This document shows, piece after piece, positions 11,325 through 60,533 of a stretch of DNA of 64,000 nucleotides (position 1 is the stretch's first letter; every line of letters starts with the position of its first letter). The DNA is from Neelides folsomi (taxonomy: Eukaryota > Arthropoda > Collembola > Neelipleona > Neelidae): assembly GCA_034687125.1 (NCBI GenBank), contig JAQGBZ010000331.1, positions 1 through 64,000 of the forward strand, in the 5' to 3' direction. The notes beneath the pieces are model-generated. The model was not told the origin of the DNA. It ran no database searches and worked only from the letters and a program-made list of their open reading frames with translations. Made by a program: the position numbers and the translations under genes.

Positions 11325-14300
11325 TTACTTCTCTGTATTTTTGCTTGTGGGTTCTTTCATCTGTTTTATAATTTCTTCTGCACTTGATGTCTTAGGTTTA
11401 CTCTTTAATGCCTTGGCTGGATATCCTCGATCCTCAACCTTTTGATGCCAATTGAGATGGAGCTTGAGATGGGATTTGACGGCCAATTTCTTCTCACAAA
11501 GATGACAATGGAAAGGAGTGATGTTTGGATAATGAAGTGTTTCGTGAAGCTTCCGATTGGCTGATGTTCGGAAGGTTTTTTCACAAAGGTTGCATTGGTA
11601 TGACTTTTCCCCCGTGTGGATTCGATAATGCGTTTTGAGTCCTTTTGAGTAATTAAATTCTTTGTTGCATCCTGGTTCTGGGTATTTCAATTTTTTATCG
11701 GAATGAATAACCATGTGATCTTCCAATTCTGAATATTTTAAACATCCGTAAGAACAAATATCGCATTTGAATCTATACGCCTTTTCGTGTATTTGTAGTT
11801 CATGGTTTTTCATTCCAGTCTCTGTGGCCAAAATATATTTTATTTTATGAATTAGTCATTAACATATTTTTATATCCCATCCATTGATAAATAGTTTTGT
11901 AAATATAATAATTACATTTTTAAAATACCAATCTTTTGATGTTTTTAATAAAATAAAAATATGCTTACTAAGTTTTTTGGCAGTATTTACACGCAAATCT
12001 CTTCTAAATTGTCGTGAAATCTTCTCCTGTGTTCATTGAGGGCCATGTTTTGGTCGAAGGTCTTTAAATTTGGAAAGAATAATTATTGAGAAAGTAATGA
12101 TAGTAATTTAAAAAATATGTTAAATTAAATATGCTGATTTTAATTTTAATAATAATAAGACTTACTAAATCACATTCCCCACATTTAATTTGTTCTGCAT
12201 GGTGAGTTTTCATGTGTGACTTTAACCTAAAAATAAAATTCTTTACTTTAAAAAACATTTAATTAAGTATTTATTTAAGTAAGTATTTTAATAAAATCAA
12301 TTCGGACAATAACTCTTCTTATACTTCTAAAAAAACATTTAATTTATCTTTTGTAAATATTCGGTCCTTGTTAAATAAACTCACAAAAATTTCTGTTTAT
12401 ACTGAGCTTAATAATATTGACATACTATGTATTGCTGAGACTTGGCTACAACTAGGTATTAAATTACCAGATATAAGTAATTATAATAATATTAGACAAG
12501 ACATAGTTGACGGATATGGTAGCCTCATAATATTTTATAAATGTTTGAATGTCAAAATTATAGAAAACTTATCGTTTATAAATGAAGAAGACCAATATAA
12601 TTAATAACAATTTTCATCTAAGCGACCACAATGCTTTAATATTTACTTATAACAAAAGTAAAATATTAAAATTAAAATCTGAAGTCAGTTATCGTGATTA
12701 TTCAAATGCAACAAGTTGATCAGTTTATCTATGATTTTATGACTCTTGACCTGGAAGTAAAACATAATAATTGTATTGAAGATGATTGGAATAACTGGAA
12801 AACATCAGTTTTAAATCTGTTTAATTATAATTGTCCAATTAAAACAAAGAAAATACTTCAAAGACCAAGTAAATGCAATTATCATCAAATACTCAAAATC
12901 TACTAAAATTACAAGACAAAATCTATAAAAAGTATAAAAGGAGTAAAACCTTACAAAACTAAAATATAGTAGTATTAAAAAAATTACAAGAAAGGCTATT
13001 AATAGTGATATGAAGCTCAAAGTTCGAAATGATATTACTAAATTAAGAAGTCCGGTGTTACTGGTTGAATTGTGCCCCATTATATCAATAATTAAGTTAT
13101 AATAATAACATTAAATTATATTCGAATAGAGATATTAAATTATACTAAAAATAATTATATTATTTTAATTGTTAGATTTCGGAAAGAATATCTTTAATTA
13201 TTCTTAGAATTAATATAGTTATAATCAAAATATATTATTAGATAACTTACATTGGAACGGGTTTAAAACAGATTGTACAGATTTTATTTTCGGGTTTCCT
13301 CGCCGAATGCTCACTTATACAATGACGTCCCATGGATATTTTTGACGGGAACATTATTTTACAAGTTGTACAAGGAACAATTTCATTGTTATGAGCAATG
13401 AAGTTGTGATCTTTAAACTCATCTTTCTCTTTAAATATGACATCGCACAATTCACAATAATTCGTTGGTTTATTTGTCGATTTTGGAGTTTTATCAATCT
13501 TTTTTTCTTCACCGTCTTTCAATAATTCTGACTTACGTTTAGTACAATATTTCACTTGACTCTCAGAAGTGCTTAATGATTCCTTAAATATTAATATTTT
13601 GTCATTATTGTTTTCGTCGATTCCTTTTTTTGTACAACTTCTAAGTGACCTCGTCGGGTTCGATAGTACGTCAGGAATGCTAAAAAATTAAAACACGAAA
13701 TCAATACTACGAGATACAATTTATTAGAATTAGAATTAGTATAATAATTACAATCATATCAGAAATTTTACCTTCTTTCATGAGATGTTTCATCAGAATT
13801 CGTTTGTACTTCTACTTTTAATAAGTCCAACTCAACGATTTCAACTTCGTTTTCTTCGTTTCGTTTTTGCTTAATTTTCTGGGGAAATTGAACCATTTTT
13901 AAATTTTCTATGCCGTCTTCCGGAAAAGATAAATCTAAAAAATTTCCAATTATAAATAAATAAATTTTGGTTGTTTAAATAGATTACTACACGCATCGTG
14001 TATAAATACTATATATTTTCTAGTTTTTGTATATAATAAACAATATGTTAATTCATATTAAATTAAATATAAATTAGTAACCTACCTTTACAAAGTTGAG
14101 AACGAATTGCTAGAAATTTTGATCGACGTCTACCTTTAAAGATTTCCCAATTTGGTCTAAAACCTCTTGATGACTTGTTGCAATTTTACATTTTATTTCA
14201 AATCTTAAATTTTCAATTTTTTGCTTGAGTAAATTTAATTCGACGAGACAATGGGAGACGTTTATCATTTTATTGAAATACTTTGAACAAAATGGTGGCC

Positions 14301-17418: not shown

Positions 17419-20368
17419 ATGGAGGATTTCCTAAAAACAAAAACAGCCAACCCGCTAAATTTATTCGATGTAAGAGATATTAATTATTCTATACCATATA
17501 TAAGAAATATGAATTTTTACTATCTTTATTTGATTTTATGTTTTTATATTGTATTTAAAAATGTTGAATATTAAATTCGATATAAAAACATTTTTAAATT
17601 TAGATTGCATACATTGTGTTGAACAATTGTGAAAAATCGCAGAAAAATTTATTTCAATTTCGAACAGTAAACAAAACATGGAGCGAAGTTGGAGCAATTT
17701 TAATGAGAAAACAAAACTCGACCAACGGAAATATTTGTCATTTTAACAATGCACATAAATACAACAGATTTCTCGAAATATTCAAAGAAAGTTCAATCGT
17801 AATAAGCGAATTTAAATTTTCCCCAGAATATCAAAGAATTTGTGAAGAAGATGAAGCTTTCATGGAATTTGTCAGAATTGCAGGGGAAGATGCAAAAACC
17901 CTCATTCTTAATCGCTACAAAGTTTCACTAACTTTAAATGAAGAATCAATCAATTTGAATGAAATTTCCACAACATCAAATAGAGAAATTTTATTGGATT
18001 TTTTGAGGAAAATAATTTATGAATATTTTCCCAATTTGAATAAAATCAAAATTCAAAATATTCATTTGCCACCAAATGAGATTAACAACATAAGCCCAAT
18101 CAAATTAAAAAATTTGATTTACTTTCAATACACTCCACTAGAAGGGAAAGAAACTCTTGCAAGAGAAATAATGAAAAATTTTAATAATCTCAAAGAAATT
18201 TCCATAAAAGAATCTTCAAACGACGCCGCCAATTTGTTCCAAGCTTTAAAAGACATTTCAGATTTAAAGTTGAAGATTAAAAAGTTCATCGTAGCAAGCA
18301 AATTTTCGATTGCGAATTTTCCTTCAATTTCTTCTTGGGACGAAAATTCAAAATTGGCCATAAACTTTAAAAGTTTAACATTGAAAATGAGAAAGGATTT
18401 CCAAGTTGAAAATTATAACGCATTTTTTTCATTCCTTTCCAAGCAAAATCTTGACGGGGCCAAATCAATTCAATCTTTGGATCTTATTCTTTGGAATGTT
18501 CAATTTGGCGAGAATTTGACGAACCAGCAAAATATTTTCGACATTCAATTTGAAAATTTGGCAAATGTGACCAAATTAACAATTACATTCAAAGACAGTC
18601 AAATTTCGGTTGCAAATGGAAAACTGGGTGAAAATCTTCGACTGAAATTTCCAAATTTGAAAATTCTGCATATTATTGGCAAACAAGAACGGTCAACGAC
18701 TGTGAAATTTAAGAACGTTTGGCCATCATTGGAAGAACTGATTTTAATCAATGCTGATTTGCATGGATTTGGAATTGGGAATGCAGACGTTTTTGAAATA
18801 TTTAAAAAATTCACAACTTTGTTGCCAAACCTCAGTAAACTCACGATTGATAGAGGAAATGGAAAAGGTCAAAAGATGAAAGTTATTGATGTAAAATTCA
18901 ATTTGTTCATTTTGGTTTGCAAAATTTATTTTTCCTGTGCCTCACAAAAATCAGAGGGAAAAAATTACAACTTTAAATTTCGTAACATTACTAATGGTTC
19001 AAGATACGAATCAGCAATTGACATTGTGCGAAATTGGAAGTTGTTTGAAATCAACAAATCAGATGTGAATTTGCTAATGGACTATAACAGATTATTTGAC
19101 TACAGAGAATTGACCAAACTCGACTTGCGTGAATTTCCTTTGAATAACCACAGCAGGGAATTTCTTTTTATGGTCATTTGCGAACTTCAGCTCAAATCTC
19201 TTTCATTGAGATATGTTGGGAATAACGCAAAGTCGAATGATTTATTTAACGATGATCACGTGAGAGAATTTCTTCATATGACTTTTATGTATTTAAAAGT
19301 TTCGCTACAACATCTTGAAATTGAATTTGATCGACCTATCAAATTTATCAATTGGGTTTTGTTTGATATCGATGATGGTCAATATTGTAAGTTGGAAAAA
19401 TACGAAACCGAAAATCAAAAGATTTTACTTCCAGAAAAATCAATTTCATACAATTCTTTGTTGAAATTTAGAAGTGAGAAAAAATCAAACGAAAATCTAA
19501 AAAATTGTTTTTCAATTTTACGACACTTTGATTAATAACTACCTATATAATACGTATATTATGTATATGATATCTGGTATATACATTAGTTAATATAATA
19601 TTAATACTGAAAATGTTTAATGGCAATATTCTTTTTAGATCTTCAAACATTGAATCTAATGTGGAATTTGAATGACTATTTCTCACATAATGAATTTTCT
19701 CAAGATGATTTTGATTATACTTATTTTCTTTCTGATATTGGAATGAATTTAATTTCCAATCACATTAAAACTTTCAAGGAGATGACATTTTCATTGTTTC
19801 CCTTTGATAAATCAATGGATTCATATAAACATTTAGGAATTGTTGATGCTAAAAACCAAATGCATCCGTTTTCTTATGTAAGCACATACTTGTTACATAA
19901 ATATACTATAAGTAGAAACGAATAACATGTGTACAATATTTACCTAATAGTCATACCCTAGATATTTAATATAACATACCTAAAGTCCATTCAGGAAATC
20001 TTTACCCATGAGTTTGAATGAACCGCTAAAATATTATTGAAAATGCTCATATGGGACTTACATGGTAACTTGCACAAGCGTTTCCTGGGCCTCACATTTT
20101 TCAATAATATTTTAGCGGTTCGTTCAAACTCATCTGTATTCGCAGCGTGAATGCATGATAGATAAAATTATTAGAAAATAAGAACATTAGTACTTTATTG
20201 TGATTTGTGATAGTATTTTTCGTATTACAATCTTTACTTTGAATAAGATTTTTTATGATTTTATTTAAATAGGTTACCACGAATGAAGATATGGGAACTG
20301 AGACTTCAATACTGGGAGACACTATACAAATTCTTTCAAAATCTCATGTTTTGTCCCGTCAAAATTAA
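17419..20368 (+). CDS. F-box / leucine-rich-repeat protein, four exons, 751 residues
   Basis: The exons are 17419-17469, 17604-19473, 19639-19877 and 20273-20368; phases agree and the sum is 752 codons with the stop. The start is the ATG at 17419, because exon 1 (MEDFLKTKTANPLNLFD) plus the start of exon 2 (IAYIVLNNC...LFQFRTVNKTWSEV) makes an F-box-like N-terminus: N-P-L, a helix, then F-R-x-V-x-x-x-W. The rest is an irregular set of leucine-rich repeats (LKSLSLRYV, LLKFRNLQTLNLMW across the exon 2-3 junction). A reading frame runs on 62 bases past the exon 2 donor to a stop at 19535; the homologous copy upstream supports splicing instead. Such proteins usually link SCF ubiquitin ligase to a target; that is family knowledge and the target is unknown. 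A MITE sits in intron 3. A poly(A) signal lies at 20534-20539. Confidence 0.75.
20008..20133. repeat. MITE-like inverted repeat in intron 3 of the F-box gene
   Basis: The left arm starts ATGAGTTTGAATGAACCGCT and the right arm is its reverse complement with one mismatch and one single-base indel. Each arm is about 38-40 bp and the centre is about 50 bp of unique sequence. It contains no frame. No target duplication is obvious. Confidence 0.7.
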
Positions 20369-20755: not shown

Positions 20756-22318
20756 TTAAGGTTTTTCATTTGTATGTATCCTAATGTGTGTATTTAAAGA
20801 ACTTGGTTGGTTAAAAGACATTCCACAAAATTGATACTTGTATGGTTTTTCCTTGGAGTGGATTCTTAAGTGACTCTCAAGATTTCCCCTTTGAGTGCAA
20901 CGTTTGTTGCAAAACAAGCACTGATAATGTTTTTCTCCTGTATGAATTATATAATGTCTTTTCAATCCATTAGGATGCGAAAAATCCTTATTGCACATAA
21001 TACACTTGCTCGCTTTAATTCCCTTATGTTTAAGCATATGATATTTAAAACCATTATGACTTGAAAATTTATTTTTGCAAATTTTACATTCGAATTTATA
21101 TTCTTTATTATTGTGAACTTTTAAATGCCTGTGTAAATCATTTCTAACTGGAAAAGTTTTATTGCATAATTTGCATTTGTATGGTTTTTCTCCTATGTGG
21201 GTTTGGAAATGACATTGGAAATGTTGTGGATATGCAAAATGTTTATCACAAAATGCGCATTTAAAAGGTTTTAAATTTTCATGAACAAATTTGATATGAT
21301 TGTATAAATGTGCAATTTGCATAAACAATTTAAAGCACAATTGGCACTTGAATGGTTTTTCTCTTGTGTGAAATCTCATGTGCCTTTGAAGAGAATCGCC
21401 TATTCGAAAACAATTTTCACACATTACACATTTAAATTTCTTTTGTCCGTAGTGTACTTTTTGACGATCTGAGAGAATAATAAGATTTCCCGCATAATTC
21501 ACACTTGAAAGACTTTGTTCTTTTAACATGTACAATTTTCTCATGTGATGTCAAATTGGAAGAAGTTCTAAATGGTTTTTTGCAAATTGAACAATTGTAA
21601 TGTTTTTCATTTGTATGTACACTTATATGCCGAATTAAACAGTTCTTCTGTGAAAATGTTTAGATTTTATAAGGAATCCTCCTATAAATAATTTTTATAT
21701 AGAAAGGATTATATTTATAAAAAGCTAAGATTCCGTTTAATTTTTTTCCTTTTAATATTAAAAATTAATTATTCTTAATTTGTAATTAAAAAATTGTAAT
21801 TTATTTATCTGTATTATGTAAACCAACAAATCCTTGCATATCTTGAAGCACATGGTCAGACCATGGACCCTCCAATTCTTTCCTTTCGGTCGTGCTCATC
21901 ATCATTTGCCAACAACAATTTCGAGATTGATCTAGCGAAGACTAGGTCTCATCCGACCAGTAAATTTCGTAGCCTTCTCTTCTAAATCTTCTAATTGAAC
22001 GAAGATAATTCTCCCGTTTGATTAGTGATTTTGAGCAAATAACTTGTCACATATTTTGCACTTGAATGTTTTTTCCCTTGTGTGTGTTGCTGCATGTCTA
22101 GATAATGATTGTTTAGTTGAACAATTTTTTCCACAAATGGTGCAGGTGTATGGTTTTTCATTTTGGTGAACCATCCTTCTATGTTTGGGTCCATATCCCC
22201 GAGAAAAATATTTTTTGCATTCGGGACATTTAAACAATTTTTCTTTTGTGTGACTTTCTATATGGACCTTTAAATAATATTGAGATGAAAAATTTTTATA
22301 GCAAAATGTACATTTTTT
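20756..22318 (-). pseudogene. C2H2 zinc-finger array, interrupted by a transposon and frame-broken
   Basis: The minus strand encodes about eleven further fingers after two at the 5' end, starting KKCTFCYKNF near 22317. A finger begins FKCKICDKLFAQ (ending near 22036) and its second half KNCLIRHISVH resumes near 21645. The two halves together make a finger with exact C-x2-C-x12-H-x3-H spacing, so about 390 bp of foreign DNA has been inserted. Downstream, FKCELCGKSYYSLRS changes frame to DRQKVHYGQKKFKC near 21472. The last finger has lost its first Cys (YKYQFCGMSF) and the frame stops after HTNEKP. The 5' end stops abruptly at a TTAGG-like tract. A smaller functional protein from the 262-codon downstream frame (21544-20756) is conceivable but has no clear promoter or start. 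Confidence 0.75.
21830..22036 (-). mobile_element. Fragment of a DDE-type (Tc1/mariner-like) transposase
   Basis: The minus strand reads NYLRSIRRFRREGYEIYWSDE followed by a Thr and a stop. A Y-L-x-x-I-R spacing followed by G-Y-x-I-x-W-x-DET is the first catalytic Asp region of DDE-superfamily transposases. Only about 25-60 residues survive and no second or third acidic residue is seen. The fragment lies in the DNA that splits the zinc finger above; the rest of that insertion (down to about 21655) is AT-rich and unrecognised. Confidence 0.6.
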
Positions 22319-22325
22319 GTTGGAC

Positions 22326-22347
22326 TTAGGTTAGGGGTTAGGTTAGG
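22326..22347 (+). repeat. Short telomere-like (TTAGG) tract
   Basis: Four units read TTAGG-TTAGGGG-TTAGG-TTAGG. TTAGG is the usual arthropod telomere repeat. The tract abuts the broken 5' end of the zinc-finger pseudogene. It may be a repair scar or chance. Confidence 0.5.
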
Positions 22348-23054
22348 TGTACTGTATTTCTGTTGGTAAAATAAATATAAATAAGATAAAAAATGATTTT
22401 TAAAAACGAAAATTGCTACACTAGATTTTCACTCGGACTGAGTGAAATTGAAATTGAAATTGAATGAATGAACTAAAATATTATATTTTATATGCAATTC
22501 AAATTTTTTAAGAATAAGGTACTTCTTAATTTATCATGAGCTGACAAATGATGAGATATATGAATTATAATTATTTATTCATTATTCCAAATTCAATTCA
22601 ACAATAAGATATGTTCCTTGAAACAAAAATGAGGCCTAATTTATAGGCTTCTCCCTTGAAATATAAATATACACAGATCTTAAGGCCATTGACAACTTTC
22701 ATTTCTTAAAATAAACAAAGGTGCCCTTAATAAGGGAATTACATACCTTATTTATAATAAACACAACAATATGCTATCAGTATAATGAAATCACCCATAA
22801 AATACGCAGTATACAGGTATTATTGTGTTTTATAATATTCAAGCATTGTATTAGTAAGCAAAATGATAATTTTGATCAATATTTTCCATTCAACCTTAGT
22901 GGTAATATAAAATATGTACACAAACATGAGTGCATGGCTATATCGCTATTGTGCGAAAAAAATTTATCTCAAAATTAAAATCTAACAAAGTTTTTAATTA
23001 GATATACCCTAAATGTTTGAATTATTACTTATATATTATTACATTTTAACAAGT
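22348..23054. other. AT-rich intergenic stretch
   Basis: I see no gene between the zinc-finger pseudogene and the 3' end of the syntaxin-like gene. Confidence 0.4.
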
Positions 23055-24613
23055 TTAAAGTTTGGTTATTGAAATCTCTTTCTCTTCAATACATTCCTGT
23101 GCGATTTCCTCAACTTTATCCTCCCTAGTTGGTTGAATTTGGAGTGAACCAAGCGAGTAAAGATCAGTTTCAAGTTCGCCGAACTCAACGCCTCCTTCAC
23201 TTGAAATACTCGGACGGCCTTCGACCTTCTTCACACGAGAAAATGTTTTCATGTTTTCTTCAAGATAATTCACAATGTCCTCCTAATTAAAACATTCTTT
23301 TTACATAAAAGATTTAATTTAAATAATTCCTAATTTGATAAATGATTAGACATTCGAAATTTTAATTACGTGATCTTCAATGACATAAGCCATGTCGACA
23401 AATAAATCATGAAGTGCAGATAAAGAATTTTCCAATTGCACTATTTCTTCGTGGCGGTCCTCGATAGACACAAGCATTTCTTTAGCTTGCTCTGGTTCAG
23501 CTATTATCTAACATTAAAACAATTTATTTTTCAATATATTTTTATGAACAATAAATATTTAAATTAACCCCTGCATAAAAGATTGCCCAATTTCCTTCTT
23601 TGACCATCGAGTCCACTTCTTCGTCCGTGTATTCTTTCCCACCTTTATTTAAAATTACCGTTTAAAGCACAGATAAAGTAATAAATACAATAGGATAGTG
23701 AAATTTTGTATTTGTACAAATCTCAAATTGTCGAATAATTCTGAGTCTTGAAGCTTTAATGAAATCTGTGTGACTTCTTCTGAATTCCATCATTGCATCA
23801 ATGAAAGATTTTCTCAATGCTTTCCCCTGACTTCCTTTGATTCTTAATGTTGCGGGGAAATAACCAGTTTTTTCACTTGCATCTTCACCCAGTCTCACAT
23901 TGTCTTCAATTTCTAAAAAGAAATAATTTTTGTCTTTAACTTTATAATCAATATTTATAATCAATATAACATTATAATCAAAATAACGTGGGAATAAAAT
24001 AAATATAAAAAACTTTAAATTTTTTTATTAATTTTAAATCTTACCTTTAATTGATTTTCGAATATCCTTAAATTCTTCTTGTATTCTTTCATACAAATCA
24101 TCCAAATTGGTTTTCATCACTTAAAATTTTAATTTCTTTTAGTTTGAAAAAATATATAGAATTAAATATAAAAATCTCATTCAGACCTTCCTTTGGATTT
24201 GGATGAGTCAGAATTTGACTTTGCTTTTTCTTCATTAAATCAATATCCTCGTTGACGTCGTCGATTTTTTTCCTAATTCCTTCGACCTAATTTTTAATTA
24301 AAAATTAATTAAGTTCCAATTATTATTTTTTAATTACTTGCCAAGTTTAGAAAAATTGACAATTGTTCGAGCTTGTCCACGGGTGGAACAAAGGGTAATA
24401 TAAGGGAAGGAAGAGATGTTGAAGAGGATATTCCATTTTCATTGACATCAACAACAGCTTCTTCCTTCTTTTTTTTAGTAATCATACTTTTCACACGAAC
24501 AACTTTCTAATAAATTTTCAATTCAAATAAAATGCATGATGATTTTTTTAAAAACGTTTATTTAATTTTGATCTTACTTTTCTAATTCCATTAAATCTGT
24601 CAGTCGAAATCAT
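23055..24613 (-). CDS. Syntaxin-like protein without a membrane anchor, eight exons, 336 residues
   Basis: The exons are 24613-24578, 24506-24342, 24286-24187, 24119-24045, 23912-23718, 23642-23569, 23507-23370 and 23282-23055; the phases agree. Syntaxin-1-type landmarks appear in order: Habc helix a (VEGIRKKIDDVNEDI), QSQILTHPNP, helix c (ATLRIKGSQGKALRKSFIDA), a YTDEEVDSMVKEGNWAIFYA segment, and the first half of the SNARE motif (RHEEIVQLENSLSALHDLFV). Two things are unusual. The zero-layer Gln of Q-SNAREs (VESQGEM) is His here (VIEDH, then EDI). The SNARE heptads run out about four layers later, and the last exon gives a charged, Ser- and Glu-rich tail ending EISITKL with no transmembrane helix. 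The intron after exon 2 needs a GC donor. It could be a soluble, regulatory syntaxin; this is inference. A typical syntaxin-1 has about 290 residues. Confidence 0.8.
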
Positions 24614-25331: not shown

Positions 25332-27534
25332 TTAATTTCTACGAACAAGGTTTAATTGAATGTCTCCATATTGAAAAACGAAAAGAGTTCCTTTTTTGAA
25401 ATTAATTTCCGTTTCTTTTGTTTCTTCAAATTGAAAATGTTTAAAAATGTTGCAGAGTACAATTTTGCTCAGTGAATATGCTAATTTTATTCCTATTGTA
25501 TTATAAATACATTTTAGTCATTGCATATATTTCATATTAAATTGATGCGAATAATATTATTTAACTTATTTGTTGTGTTATGTTTAAAAATATAATCTAC
25601 CTATGCAATTTTTTGGTCCATGTCCAAAAGAGTTAAAAGCATAAGGATGCAAATTTTTCTTGTTTTCTGGTAAGAATCTCTCAGGCTTGAAAAAATCTGG
25701 TTCTGGAAAATATTTAGGATTCCGATGTATTGCCCAATTGGGGAAAACGACAATTTGTCCTTTGGAAATCACAAGCCCAGTTTCCTCATCTTTCCATTGT
25801 TTCGTACAAAGACGTTCCGGACGAATGAACGGCGAATTCAAACGGAGAGATTCAGTAATTGTTGCTTCAAGATATTCCATTTCCTTAATGGATTCACCGT
25901 TTATTTCCCCATTGAATTTGTTCATGATGATTTCATCAAATTCTTGGAGAATTTTCTCTTGAGCTTCAGGATTCTTTGCCAAGTGATAGCCAACTAAAGA
26001 CAGTGTCGTACCAGTGGAATCAAACATGGTGAAGAATTGTTCAAGAATTTGAGAAATTCCAGTTTGTTTGGTGATTCCGAGTCTCTTGAATTCAGGCGTT
26101 GAGGATCGGTTGATAATGTCAACAAGGATCTCAAGAACGTCATTTTGCTTTCCCCCGCTTTTCATTCGAATGTTCACAATTTCGTCCATCATTGTTGCAA
26201 AATGGTCAATTCCATCAGTAGGAAATACTTTTGGGAAAAACGGTTTCAAAAATGGAAATACCACTGAAATAATAAATTTTTATTATTATCATATTAATTA
26301 TGTTACGATTATTCTTATATTGCATATTATTACTAACCCTTCTCAATCAAATAAAAGATAATTTATAACAAACACATGTACAATGTATGGTACATAGAGT
26401 AAAAAATTAAGAAATTAAGAAAATTTAATATTAAAACAATTAAAAGGTAAAAATAATTTTTAATAGAATCCTTAAAATCATTACGTAGTAAATTATAAGT
26501 GTAATTATATTTAACATGCTCGCAAAGAATCTTTTTGAGAAGATTGGCAAATTTGTTATTTGGATTCATTCTGTCTTCAAGTTGAATTCCGCATAAAGCT
26601 TGAGCTCCGTAATCAACCATCAAACCGACAATTCGACTATCAAAATAACAATTTTTAATTTAGTTGATTCAATTATGAATTCAACAATTCAACATAAATT
26701 ATTAAATTAATATAAAATGTAAATTTTAATATAAATAGTACTATTAACATTGATACTTATGTTTTTAACAACCTTCTATATAAAATCTTCTTGCTTTGAA
26801 CATTTTCTTGGTCAAATTCCTCAACCCATTGATCCACACATTCTTTTGCAAGGGTTCCCATTATCTCATTTAAATGTTTAATCCTACCAGTAGAAAATGC
26901 AGGAGAAAACAAATTCCTGACCATTTTCCATTTTTCCGCTTTAAAAATAATATAATTTAGGTACATAATATAAAGAATAACATACGTTTTACTACACAGA
27001 TCAATTCATTGTCAGTAATATTATTTTTAAATAAAATATTATTTCATTGATTAATTATTTACTTGGAAGATAATCCATTATTTCATTAGCAATTGGATGA
27101 CCCAAATCAATAGAAGCCCTTGCACTGAAATGTTCATAATCTTGGACCATCATTCGCTTCACCAAGTCTGCATTACAAACGTGTAAAATCGGAGTTCTCC
27201 CTTCATACACCTGGACGAATTCATTATTCATTCATTCATTAATTATTGATTAATTAAACATTTACAACAGTAAAATGAATAGTAAATTTTTAAAATTACA
27301 TTTAAGACAAAATATGTTTACCCCATATACTTCTCCAAATTTTCTGAATCTTCTAATATCTTCCTTCTGCATGATGGTGGTAGGCAATTTAGTCAAAGAA
27401 CCAAAAAGCCAATGAGATTCCACAATTGGAACTCCCATTGATTCCAAAATTCCTCTGTTCCATCGGGCGTACAAAATTAGTAGGCTGATTAAACCAATTA
27501 AAGATATTATGAAAATTTCAATCATTTCCTTCAA
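25332..27534 (-). CDS. Cytochrome P450, CYP3-clan-like, intact, 500 residues
   Basis: The exons are 27534-27322, 27210-27063, 26938-26773, 26636-26485, 26263-25601 and 25492-25332. Phases agree and the total is 501 codons with the stop, the usual P450 length. Landmarks in order: an N-terminal anchor helix (IEIFIISLIGLISLLILYA), the C-helix WKMVRN (W-x3-R), the I-helix region (FFTMFDSTGTTLS), the K-helix E-x-x-R (ESLR), PERF, and the heme loop FGHGPKNCIG with Cys446 as thiolate ligand. The CIG ending and PERFLP spacing suggest the CYP3 clan. The I-helix is divergent: where A/G-G-x-D/E-T-T is expected it has T-M-F-D-S-T, so the oxygen-relay Thr is Ser. P450s of this type are ER-bound monooxygenases, often for xenobiotics; the substrate is unknown. 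A decayed P450 lies directly upstream on the same strand but belongs to another clan. Confidence 0.85.
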
Positions 27535-28383
27535 TTCGATTCTAAATATTAAAATATCAAAGTGTTATTATGATGTTATTCCATATGTGAGTTTGAGAAT
27601 TAATTAATTATTAAACAAATCCTTGAAAGAATGAATTAATTATTATAGTCGCGAATTTATATAAATTGCTTAAATCTCATGCTAATGAATATTCAAGTTA
27701 ATATCATTGTGTGTAACATTGAAAAGATATGATAGATCAAAGTAAATTCATGCTATGAGTTATTATAGTATTATCTACCCCACTTAAAGATTCTATGCTG
27801 CTATTTATTATAGCAGATATTTGGAGCAGATTAGGCATCAGCTTCTTTTTTATTTTCTAATGCTCCAATATTGATAAATATGAAGATTTACTTTTATATG
27901 CAGAATAATATATTTACTCTTTTAGTAAATATTGACCTTGTGCAACTATCACCTTGAATTTGATAGATGATTTGTATGTTTTCATTTAGCTTTGAACCTT
28001 CCCTCACTTCATTAAAAATAAAACCTCAGCTCAGCCGTAAAAAATCAAGAAATGAGATCAAGAATTATGTAAAATGGTTTTATTCATAGGCTTTACTATT
28101 CCGATTAATATTTAATGATTTAATTTTAAAGAATAACAAACATTTAGGTAACTATTATAGCTATTATAATTGCTCTATTGGATAAGTAAAACAACATTAC
28201 GTACACAAGTTAATTATATGTACTAATACACAAATACACAATATTATTCATACTATTGTTGTATTACCTACAATACTAGCATTAAGTGTGGGTGTGTATC
28301 TTACCTATGTTTTTCATAAAAGTTTAAAATATTAGGACTTTTAAAGGACTTTAAAAAAGCTCTTGTACAACGACTGGATATTG
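27535..28383. other. Intergenic between the two P450 loci
   Basis: This is the promoter side of the intact P450 and the 3' flank of the decayed one. I see nothing coding. Confidence 0.4.
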
Positions 28384-30183
28384 TTAAGGTGTGATTACGA
28401 GTCCGTATTCTGAATAGTTAATATCAAGTTTCTTTTCTAATAAATTGGGCTTAAAAGTGAAATTCTGGACAAGTCTCATTGTAAATAAAAACATTTCATC
28501 TTTAGCAATACTTCCAGTCACACAGGATCTTTTCCCAATAAAAAACGGCATTAAGGATGAATGTTTAGAAAAATTTCCACCCTCGTCCAGAAATCTCTCA
28601 GGCACAAATTCCATTGGGTCATGCGAAGTCCACGAAGATGGATCGTGATGGATTTTCCACAAATTTTGATAAATCGCTGACCCTTTAGGAATTTCATAAC
28701 CTCCAAGTTGATCTGTTTGGGTTGCAGCGTGGAAAAATCCTAATGGGGCAATTGAGGCTTTTCTTTGGGATTCGGCAATGAACGCTTCTGCATACGGCAT
28801 CCTAAAACACAAAAAATCATTTCATACTATTTAATATCCTGAAACTTGATTAATAAACATTCTAGCATTTAAGGTTCTGAAAGGTTAGGTTTGTTAAAAG
28901 TAGGATATGTATTATATGAATAATATATGTTAGCATTTTTCTATCTGCAAGCGTTGGAAGCCGAGATTTGCCAACAACTGAATGAATTTCATTTCTTAAT
29001 TTGTCTTGAATTTCTTGATGGGCTGTAAGATAAAGAAATGTCCAAGCTATTGAAGTGCTCACAGTGTCCCATCCAGCAGTAATCATATCCACCATTATAA
29101 AGATCAAATTCTTTTCTAATTTAAAATAAAGTTTTCATTTAAATCATTTACAATTTACAATTTAGCCATTCTTTATCCCTTTTAGTGCAAATTATAAGAT
29201 TATAACAAAGCAGTATATACACATATTATCTTTTTACTTTCATGTTCCTTATAAAAAGCTGATTTAGAATTTTGGCTCATTTTCTCCATCTGGATTAAGT
29301 AATGATCGACCATGTCCCTTGGGTCATTTGAGTCAAGTTTCTTTTCATGATCTTCCACAATTTGATTTAAAAATTGGAGCAAAGGAGGGATCATTCTATT
29401 AAATGCATTTACTCCGCTTTGTTCTCCGAATATTTTAGCCAACCAAGGCATATAAAACATTATGCCCATGAAGTCTTGTCTTTCAAAGCCGCTATATTTA
29501 AACATGTAAATTTTATATTTATACTTAATTTACAATTAAATATGCCCATGCAATATCATAAATTAATCAATAAGGATAAATATTATACTCGAGGATGAGT
29601 TTGGTTATTTTCCTCAATTCCTTATCATCTTTTTCATATCGGATTCCAGTCGTGAGTTGCCATACAATTTTCAAAGCATGTAAATTAAATCTTTGGTTCA
29701 TCTGAATTGGGGAGTTCAAGTCCATTCTGTTCACGTTTTTGCAAGTTCGCGCGCAGAATTTAGATCATTGACTACAACAACGCTAATTTTAAGAAGTTTA
29801 ATGAGGATTAAACTGCATTTTATATTTTAATTTTATATTAAGAAATAATATATTGATTTATATGAATTTAGAATAAGAATTGAATTACGGGTAATTTCCA
29901 AAATGCAATCCTATAATTGGTCCATATTTTTCGCTTAGCTTGCAGATACCATGATCGACTCGATTACCAATTTGGAAAAAATTCCCAAATAAGGGCCATG
30001 GCTTTGGTCCTACAATATTTCAAACATTATCAAATAAATATTTAAACATTTGAATTTGCAATTGTTTTTCAAAAAACTAACCTGGTCGAAAATTTTTTTC
30101 CGACGTGGAGTTAACAAATAAAGCGACAACGTAAAAGTTAAAATCACAAGTAATAAAAAATACATTTTTATTTGAAAATTCAT
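28384..30183 (-). pseudogene. Cytochrome P450 pseudogene, CYP2-clan-like
   Basis: The exon remnants are 30183-30082, 30009-29889, 29782-29589, 29491-29238, 29115-28928 and 28801-28384. Recognisable parts are a hydrophobic anchor (MYFLLLVILTFTLSLYLL), GPKPWPLFGN, the I-helix AGWDTVSTS, E-S-Q-R of the K-helix, PERF and the heme region. The lesions are: a one-base loss in a run of seven A near 30095, which breaks the frame between the anchor and RPGPKPW; loss of about 80 residues including the C-helix W-x3-R, leaving a TGA (ELAKT then stop) beside RMDLNSPIQMNQRF; a donor GT changed to AT at about 28927, between the I-helix and K-helix exons; and the final Gly of the heme motif replaced (FFIGKRSCVT). 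The other splice sites still fit in phase, so the decay looks fairly recent. Confidence 0.8.
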
Positions 30184-58300: not shown

Positions 58301-60533
58301 TTACAAGTTGAAATTCCGACTCGAATTTTTGTAATTTATTCTTAATTCTTCAATATGTGCAGTGGAGTATAAGGACGGTACATTTAAGTACAACATAAAT
58401 ACAAATATAATTGTAAGTTTATATGCACTTAACATAAATATATTAACCAAATGGACCGAAAACATTTATCGAAAGTTGAACCAGCGGTTTTAGAATTTTC
58501 CCCTATACGAAAGCACTGGGCAAAGATTTTGCATGAGAAACGATCCCACAATACTTCACAATAATAAATTTGTTTTTCCCCAATGCATTCTTGAGTGTCA
58601 AATCGAGATTCGTCAATTGTGACAACAAATTCACCTTAAACCCACTCGTGCTGTTCTCATAGGAAATCTTGGAGTTTCCTGTGGAATTGTTATGAAAGCA
58701 GTGAAAGCAGCGTGGGTACTCTCGTCTTAGCTCACATTATTGCGGTTCCTTCTTCCATGGATAAGTTGAATATAAAAACTTATTTGGGGTTATGTGGTTC
58801 AGCCCGTTAGTCACGGACCAATTCATTTCGTTTGAAAAGAATCTGAATTGATTGTCACATGCAAACACGTATACATAAAGTGAAAGCATGGGTATCAATT
58901 TTATATGTATCTGTACATAAAGCATTTATGTACCTATTTGTAGTTATAAAATATAAATTTGTAGTAAGCTTTTTATAGTACATTAATTCTAAGCTTGATT
59001 TTCGTATATTAAATTTATCTATATGGCTATGTCAGTATATCTATATCAGTATCAGTACTACCAGAGTATTCTATATGATATTCCAGTTAATATAAATGGG
59101 ACCAATAAACTACAGAATAATATCGAATTTAATTTGGATCTCAATTTATAAATATATCGAAAAATATTTATTTACAAGTAAGCCCTGCTACGTAAATGGA
59201 TGCGGATACGACAAATCACTTAAAATTGGATATTTATTCTGTTATATACCTAATGGGAATGTCCATCACGCTGTGTTTTTTCATTGCCCGATTTTGGCAA
59301 CAAATTGTTGAAATCAGATGAAATGTTTTTATTGATTTTATATTTTATTATTTCTAGTTGACAATTCTGTGTGTTTGGATCGCGAGTGCCATTATCAACT
59401 CCCCACGTCTCTACTACATCAAAACGATTACCATAACCAATAGCTTCAATAACAACCACCCCGCTGTGGCTGAAACCATGTGCATTGCGGACCGAACTCT
59501 CTTCAATTCCAAAACATCTGATCTCATCATTTTCGCTGTCCAGTATCTCATTCCCCTGGCGATCATCACGGTGCTTTACACTCTCATTGGCGTGGCTCTC
59601 TGGAGATCCTCTCGTGCTCAAATGCCTCAAAATGAAGCATCAGGAGAGCTGAGTTCCTCAAGCTCAAACCCCGACTCGGACGGGTCGACAACAACCAGAC
59701 AATCAAAACGTAAGCGTCATTATCGAACGAACAAAAATTTCACGCGTCTCTTTGGGTGGTGTATTAGAAGAGATCGGAGTCCCGGAGAACCACCGCCACC
59801 CAACCCGGCCACTGAACAAATCGTGGTTGTTAAATTTGAGAAAAAGAGTTCGATGAAGAACAGTAATTCAAAAAAGAATTCTTGTACAATTGTCCTTGCT
59901 GTCAACAACCCGACTTTGTTGACCAATGGGAATTCTAATCACAATTTGTCATTCCATGAGAATGGGCGTCTTGAGAAAAATCCGGAGTCGCCGTGTCCAA
60001 ATAGCAGCTCAAATTGTTCAGGTCAAGGGTCAAGATTCTCCATTGATTCTCCGGACGGGAGCGAGATTATGGAGAATAAGAGCAATGTGACGTTCAATTT
60101 CAATGAGAATCTCTTAGCTGTCCCCACAGCCCCTCATGTACATCAACCGAGATTAAAGCGCATGAGGGTGATCCGCGGTTCGAAGTACGGAACGAGAGCT
60201 CTTGAGTCGAGAAGAAAGATCATAAGGATGCTCGTGGTCATCGTCTTCACCTTCGCTATATGCAATTTTCCATTTCACGCAAGGAAACTTTGGCAAATTT
60301 ACGGGAAGAGCTATTCAGGTGGATCCAACTTTGCAACCCTCCTTACCATGTTCACAAACTTGGCACTTTATGCCAATTCAGGAGTTAACCCGATCCTTTA
60401 TGCTTTCATGTCAAAGAAGTTCCGCCAAAGCTTCGTCGATTTCCTTTATTGTAAAATGAAACGGTCGTTGAGGGTTACGAGAAATGCGTCGGTTAGGTCG
60501 ACAAATGTCATTCCTTTGACATCCATGGCGTGA
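49363..60533 (+). CDS. TrissinR: Trissin-receptor-like neuropeptide GPCR, six coding exons, 569 residues
   Basis: The exons are 49363-49462, 50006-50134, 54338-54406, 54613-54688, 54879-55038 and 59358-60533. Phases 1,1,1,2,0 agree and the sum is 570 codons with the stop. The N-terminus has four N-glycosylation sequons (NES, NIT, NIT, NNS). Helix 1 ends FGNLMVILVV. Helix 2 (NLAIADLCVGVFCVYQNL), the helix 3 end (E157-R-Y in VICVERYLAIIHP), CKQMLT, helix 5 ending LYTLIGVALWRSSR, helix 6 (FAICNFPFHARKLW) and helix 7 (NSGVNPILYAF) match the insect trissin receptor better than any other class-A receptor I know. The third intracellular loop is long (about 130 residues), Ser/Asn-rich. Trissin is a disulfide-bonded arthropod peptide; Gq-type signalling is known for the fly receptor and inferred here. 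Exon 6 begins in phase 0 at a TTG, so its open frame does not start translation. A poly(A) signal is at 60559. Confidence 0.85.
50135..54337. other. Intron 2 of the trissin-receptor gene
   Basis: A 4.2-kb AT-rich intron between the exon ending C-F-F-G and the helix-1 exon. It holds the GC-rich patch at 50606-50712; I see no nested gene. Confidence 0.6.
50606..50712. repeat. GC-rich patch resembling a worn transposon end
   Basis: About 100 bp rich in cgggg and ccccg words (ggggacggagaattccccgt), ending tgacatccct. On the minus strand this begins AGGGATGTCAATTCCCCG, similar to hAT-type element ends. No partner end is found nearby. Confidence 0.35.
55039..59357. other. Intron 5 of the trissin-receptor gene
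   Basis: A 4.3-kb AT-rich intron between the helix-3 exon and the last exon. Short frames inside (for example at 55482 and 59096) have no domain. I see no nested gene. Confidence 0.6.

Follow-up and report, generated by a model that had tools for sequence, protein, structure and literature searches.

Soluble splice forms of syntaxin and anchorless decoy SNAREs are already known. The mammalian soluble syntaxins, syntaxin 1C and syntaxin 3D, arise by alternative splicing of a gene that also makes an anchored protein; syntaxin 3D has lost the SNARE part as well. Syntaxin 3D lacks a transmembrane helix (PMC11476516). Tomosyn, a cytoplasmic, anchorless decoy R-SNARE with WD40 propellers, forms complexes that do not lead to fusion (PMC8377282), and the i-SNAREs (syntaxin 6/Tlg1, GS15/Sft1 and rBet1/Bet1) are anchored, otherwise ordinary SNAREs that occupy a complex and block fusion when in excess or misplaced (PMC3627133). 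In the window (the 64,000-nucleotide stretch of Neelides folsomi DNA analysed here) we found a gene whose predicted product shares with the plasma-membrane Qa-SNARE syntaxin-1A (Syx1A) the Asp-Arg of the N-peptide, the Habc domain, the linker and SNARE layers -7 to +4, but differs from it in a His at layer 0, the lack of layers +5 to +8 and of the membrane-helix anchor, a polybasic N-terminus and a new acidic tail. Unlike the mammalian soluble forms it is a separate gene without an anchor exon, and unlike syntaxin 3D it keeps part of the SNARE motif; where tomosyn is an R-SNARE with propellers it is of the Qa type with Habc, although it too would be cytoplasmic and could form non-fusing complexes; and it lacks a membrane helix, where the i-SNAREs are anchored. 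A literature search at the level of titles and the starts of abstracts, with most subscription papers outside its reach, returned no arthropod gene for an anchorless syntaxin, and what is new here is a separate arthropod gene predicted to encode an anchorless Qa protein with a partial motif. We tentatively propose that it arose from the syntaxin-1-type gene of this genome by duplication at the DNA level, has diverged since, and has been retained as a soluble decoy or regulator, a reading that we favour while placing it a little short of probable.

The gene lies at 24613-23055 on the minus strand, where a sequence-only reading of the window had described an eight-exon syntaxin-like gene, correctly in both position and content. 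With exon boundaries placed manually and syntaxin as a guide, the eight exons join into one open frame of 336 amino acids. SNARE layers follow the conventional numbering on a syntaxin-1A reference, presumably from rat, and the paralogue referred to is C186, described below. The features are as follows.

24578..24613, minus strand: exon 1, N-peptide-like MISTDRFNGIRK, Asp-Arg retained (MPRDRMPALRR in the paralogue)
24342..24506, minus strand: exon 2, polybasic at its start and then leading up to Ha; the donor, GCAAGT, is of the GC type
24187..24286, minus strand: exon 3, Habc; 100 bp, as in C186
24045..24119, minus strand: exon 4, Habc; 75 bp, as in C186
23718..23912, minus strand: exon 5, Habc and start of the linker; 195 bp, as in C186
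23569..23642, minus strand: exon 6, linker, with V/D at the L165/E166 positions; 74 bp, as in C186
23370..23507, minus strand: exon 7, SNARE layers -7 to 0; 138 bp, as in C186
23370..23372, minus strand: zero-layer codon, CAC (His) against CAG (Gln) in C186, directly before an intron in both
23055..23282, minus strand: exon 8, the last; carries layers +1 to +4 and the charged tail, then the stop
23058..23240, minus strand: the unique 61-aa tail, coding-like, with a net charge of -6 and 43% GC
22993..22998, minus strand: ATTAAA, a possible polyadenylation signal slightly more than 50 nt past the stop

Intron 2 (24287-24341, minus strand) is best read as GC-AG, with the donor GCAAGT following 24342. 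On this reading the junction returns to phase 0, with LNL before it and VEGIRKK after it, matching FET and VEELRKL in the paralogue; an alternative GT donor at 24338 would require a different acceptor. The remaining six introns are GT-AG, with weak donors among them (GTCTGA, GTTAAT and GTACAA). All eight exons are open and in phase across seven splice pairs, as had been claimed, and across them we found no stops, frameshifts or lost splice sites of the kind that mark a pseudogene, although some donors are weak. We regard the anatomy of this predicted gene as established.

Searches with a 335-residue version of the product, built on an alternative exon 2/3 junction, matched the Pfam Syntaxin model (PF00804) at 84.5 bits against a cut-off of 26.7, and the best match among solved structures was syntaxin-1A (6mdm_I, E 3.5e-37, query residues 63-272). 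The SNARE model PF05739 gave no match to the product at E<=1, compared with 57.6 bits for C186. Aligned to the layer positions of rat syntaxin-1A, layers -7 to +8 of the window gene read I L L L F M I H V L M F K E S S. The Habc region and the first half of the Q-SNARE motif are thus retained, with layers -7 to +4 filled; layer 0 is His (codon CAC) in place of Gln; the heptads fade about four layers later, layers +5 to +8 being K, E, S and S; and a charged tail of 61 residues stands where those layers and the membrane helix would be. The sequence-only reading had described these features in outline, and they are borne out. A wrong base at the CAC codon is one conceivable source of the His; the residue after the zero layer has changed as well, from Gly in C186 to Glu.

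The highest hydropathy over any 19 residues of the product is 1.16, compared with 3.46 for the membrane helix of the paralogue. Splicing of the SNARE exon to another exon encoding a membrane helix had been named as the observation that would count against an anchorless product, and a splice scan in silico down to position 21700 yielded no such join. From exon 8, none of 95 joins using GT[AG] or GCAAG donors with [TC]AG acceptors reached a downstream membrane helix, nor did any of 671 joins using any GT with any NAG; the donors of exon 7 gave 0 of 69. As a control, the identical scan was run on C186 and recovered its membrane exon, in 2 of 19 joins and with a hydropathy of 3.46. The absence of a membrane helix from the predicted product is therefore established down to that position.

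The assembly comprises 75.1 Mb in 840 contigs, and its 39 matches to the chitin-binding cuticle family PF00379 indicate an arthropod. Elsewhere in it we identified one full-length syntaxin-1-type gene, at C186:5936-7678, which has nine exons and encodes 310 amino acids, with Gln at layer 0 and the membrane helix encoded by exon 9. Exons 3 to 7 are equal in length between the two genes (100, 75, 195, 74 and 138 bp) and the seven introns that they share have the same phase in both. This makes the window gene a duplicate made at the DNA level, introns included, and not a retrocopy. Exon 8 of C186 (111 bp) splices to the membrane-helix exon; exon 8 of the window gene instead extends into the tail and a stop. 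Searches of the genome in which the best 1 to 12 candidates were scored found no copy of the window gene besides its own locus and no second copy of its tail (60 of the 61 residues searched). C186, the only anchored syntaxin-1-type gene found, is itself low for the family, with 126 of 250 residues identical to syntaxin-1A.

The window gene and C186 share 86 of 209 residues, compared with 61 of 204 shared with what we take to be the human STX4 sequence. A six-row tree, three of its rows being presumed sequences and insect Syx4 left out, groups the window gene with C186 at 96/97, on a very long branch whose placement the tree program flags as unsure. We regard the paralogy of the two predicted genes as established. 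That the window gene is instead a derived orthologue of insect syntaxin-4 that has lost its anchor, and not a duplicate of the syntaxin-1-type gene, would agree with the two genes found here and with a report that insects have two genes of the syntaxin-1/4 subfamily, Stx1 and Stx4 (PMC2374702). Searches with C186 and rat syntaxin-1A, again scoring the best 1 to 12 candidates, found no canonical syntaxin-1A elsewhere in the genome, and an assembly gap, or Syx4 orthology of either the window gene or C186, is therefore possible. Both the higher identity to C186 and the tree speak against the syntaxin-4 alternative, the first with a presumed STX4 sequence and the second with an unsure long row and no insect Stx4, and we consider it very unlikely.

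To describe how the duplicate has evolved, we compared it with C186 over a gap-free block of 207 codons, in which 83 residues are identical and codon positions 1, 2 and 3 are identical at 116, 135 and 75 of 207. A pairwise codon model rejected omega=1 (2dlnL 69.3); the omega estimate itself (0.02) is unreliable, synonymous change being saturated and both branches averaged. The argument that is specific to the window gene's own branch comes from simulation. When C186 was evolved neutrally to the observed identity, it acquired a mean of 10.9 stops and none of 400 runs stayed stop-free, compared with no stops in the window gene. C186 and rat share 59 hydrophobic positions, and the window gene is still hydrophobic at 56 of them, compared with a mean of 43.9 and a maximum of 52 in the neutral runs. 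We take past constraint on the predicted product to be established. Lone changes in the 207 core columns number 51 in the window gene (where C186 equals rat) and 17 in C186; constraint on the predicted product is relaxed or altered, and given this excess its partner-binding surfaces may have changed.

We examined the tail, which occupies codons 15-75 of exon 8, separately. Its GC content is 43%, compared with 11-23% in the introns and 25-26% in the flanks. On a codon-usage score trained on 2552 codons of this genome it reaches 33.0 in its own frame, against values between 8.5 and 19.5 in the other five. Among random stop-free stretches, 0 of 3000 drawn from the background and 4 of 3000 matched for GC scored as high as 33.0. 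The score is less decisive for other exons: in exon 5 another frame scores above its own (22.2 with 4 stops against 16.7 with none), and in the short exon 1 another frame reaches 2.2 with 3 stops against 0.8. The tail could become coding only once the old 3' end had been lost, so its coding composition suggests that it has been translated since that loss. The product ends in ITKL (23055-23069, minus strand), a sequence that resembles a PDZ ligand of class I and bears a looser likeness to a peroxisomal PTS1.

With no lesions, a preserved hydrophobic core and a coding-like tail, old neutral decay of the predicted gene is rejected. The sequence-only reading had held that the gene is not simple decay, and this stands for old decay (no stops, 56 of 59 hydrophobic positions) but does not extend to a recent loss of function, which is possible because 10.5% of neutral runs at 90% identity were stop-free; of all runs at that identity, 84% kept at least 56 hydrophobic positions. 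A very young pseudogene or unexpressed relic whose lesions are still to come would fit that figure for decay over the last 10% of amino-acid change, as well as the long branch, the 51 against 17 lone changes, the loss of the anchor and four layers, and the weak donors. The eight open, in-phase exons with their seven splice pairs argue the other way, as does the composition of the tail, which would point to translation after the old 3' end was lost, and we think such a relic improbable.

The N-peptide begins with Asp-Arg in both genes (DRFNGI in the window gene, DRMPAL in C186). A polybasic stretch at residues 11-26 (24506-24578 region) is new relative to C186; net charge over residues 1-26 is +9 compared with +2 in C186, whose first 55 residues sum to -6. 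This stretch could be a nuclear or a lipid-binding signal. In the first case its KKKK run would serve as a nuclear signal and direct a soluble syntaxin to a role outside fusion. A nuclear or transcriptional role has been suggested for a truncated syntaxin-3, and the charge difference is in line with it; basic runs are frequent, however, and a purely nuclear protein would have no use for an Asp-Arg N-peptide or for SNARE layers -7 to +4, and we judge this explanation unlikely. In the second case the polybasic N-terminus, or the single cysteine of the tail (QECIEE), would substitute for the anchor, much as palmitoylation alone holds SNAP-25 (PMC8377282), and the protein would act at the membrane as a Qa-SNARE that is weak or inhibitory. 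There is no cysteine cluster, no hydrophobic stretch exceeds 1.16, and zippering toward the membrane could not be completed without layers +5 to +8, so that a peripheral, membrane-linked syntaxin also has only a small chance of being correct.

The sequence-only reading had placed much weight on the zero layer. The His is present, but that weight was too great: syntaxin mutants of C. elegans are reported to be rescued by a Q-to-R syntaxin (PMC5937789), and a His at layer 0 therefore need not by itself disable a syntaxin. The loss of the anchor and of layers +5 to +8 weighs more. We searched the genome for the partners that such a protein would meet. There are three SNAP-25-class loci (C88, C319 and C75), perhaps an expansion of the exocytic t-SNARE set, and in all three Gln is retained at the two places that align with the zero layer. 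Several VAMP-like loci are present, with ERD(Q/A)KL retained in the pieces from C139, C41 (two) and C427; eight PF00957 loci were taken, of which C180 and C197 gave no alignment match and C153 aligned solely beyond the zero layer, so that the R-SNAREs were covered in part. A rewired layer 0 with a compensating change in a partner was dropped as an explanation, no compensation being seen where the zero layer of the SNAP-25-like and VAMP-like partners aligned. Six loci match the Sec1 family. Compared with solved structures, one exon piece of C143 is near Munc18-1 and squid Sec1 (281 bits) and one of C54 represents a more diverged Munc18-class gene (184 bits); the other four were judged by eye to be of the Vps45, Vps33 and Sly1 types.

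The predicted product keeps the parts that face Munc18, namely the Asp-Arg N-peptide, Habc and the linker, together with the SNARE helix to layer +4, and has lost the membrane-helix anchor and the layers that zipper last. By a manual reading of the alignment, with rat numbering counted by hand, the linker retains R151 and I155 and has V/D for L165/E166, positions that have been singled out as important (PMC8728020). With the Munc18-facing parts kept and the zippering end lost, the product would be expected to tie up Munc18, and perhaps SNAP-25 as well, while driving no fusion itself. It may bind one of the two Munc18-class proteins in a closed or template-like state, and/or join SNAP-25 in a half-zippered t-SNARE, so that fusion partners would be taken up, perhaps only weakly, while membranes are not drawn together. 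The sign could also be the opposite, the product aiding assembly in trans; its binding, its location and the sign of its effect are things that we infer. Order in the t-SNARE is reported to extend to layer +4, and the Munc18 template complex to be stabilised in trans by the syntaxin N-terminal regulatory domain (PMC6320071). For syntaxin-4 without its anchor, Munc18c appears inhibitory to SNARE assembly, possibly as an artefact, and truncated soluble syntaxin-4 dissociates from Munc18c faster than anchored-like forms do (PMC5571939).

The diverged Munc18-class gene C54 is a possible dedicated partner of the product. In the most specific form of the proposal, the product would be a dedicated soluble Qa half-SNARE ending at layer +4 and paired with C54 as a nucleation-only regulator, making it an invertebrate decoy of the Qa type with its own gene. 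A second Munc18 is not unusual, since C. elegans has UNCP-18, for which the abstract names no such syntaxin (PMC10697816); this makes the pairing slightly less probable, and we consider it unlikely.

Experimenters cut syntaxin to its regulatory domain and a partial SNARE helix for studies of assembly; here a comparable truncation, at layer +4, seems to have arisen in evolution and to have been preserved as a gene in its own right. If expressed, the product would offer a natural test of Munc18 binding and of fusion restraint by a half-SNARE, and would place a Qa-type decoy beside tomosyn, one invertebrate decoy SNARE named in a review (PMC8377282).

Several neighbouring genes in the window were named by eye. 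Pieces of C2H2 zinc-finger genes lie around the syntaxin gene (20759-21550, 22022-22330 and 11328-13687, minus strand), and pieces of a cytochrome P450 gene adjoin it (25587-28821, minus strand). Further away, an open frame of 643 codons at 17604-19532 (plus strand) may encode an F-box/leucine-rich protein, and one of 391 codons at 59358-60530 (plus strand) resembles a GPCR of the peptide-receptor type.
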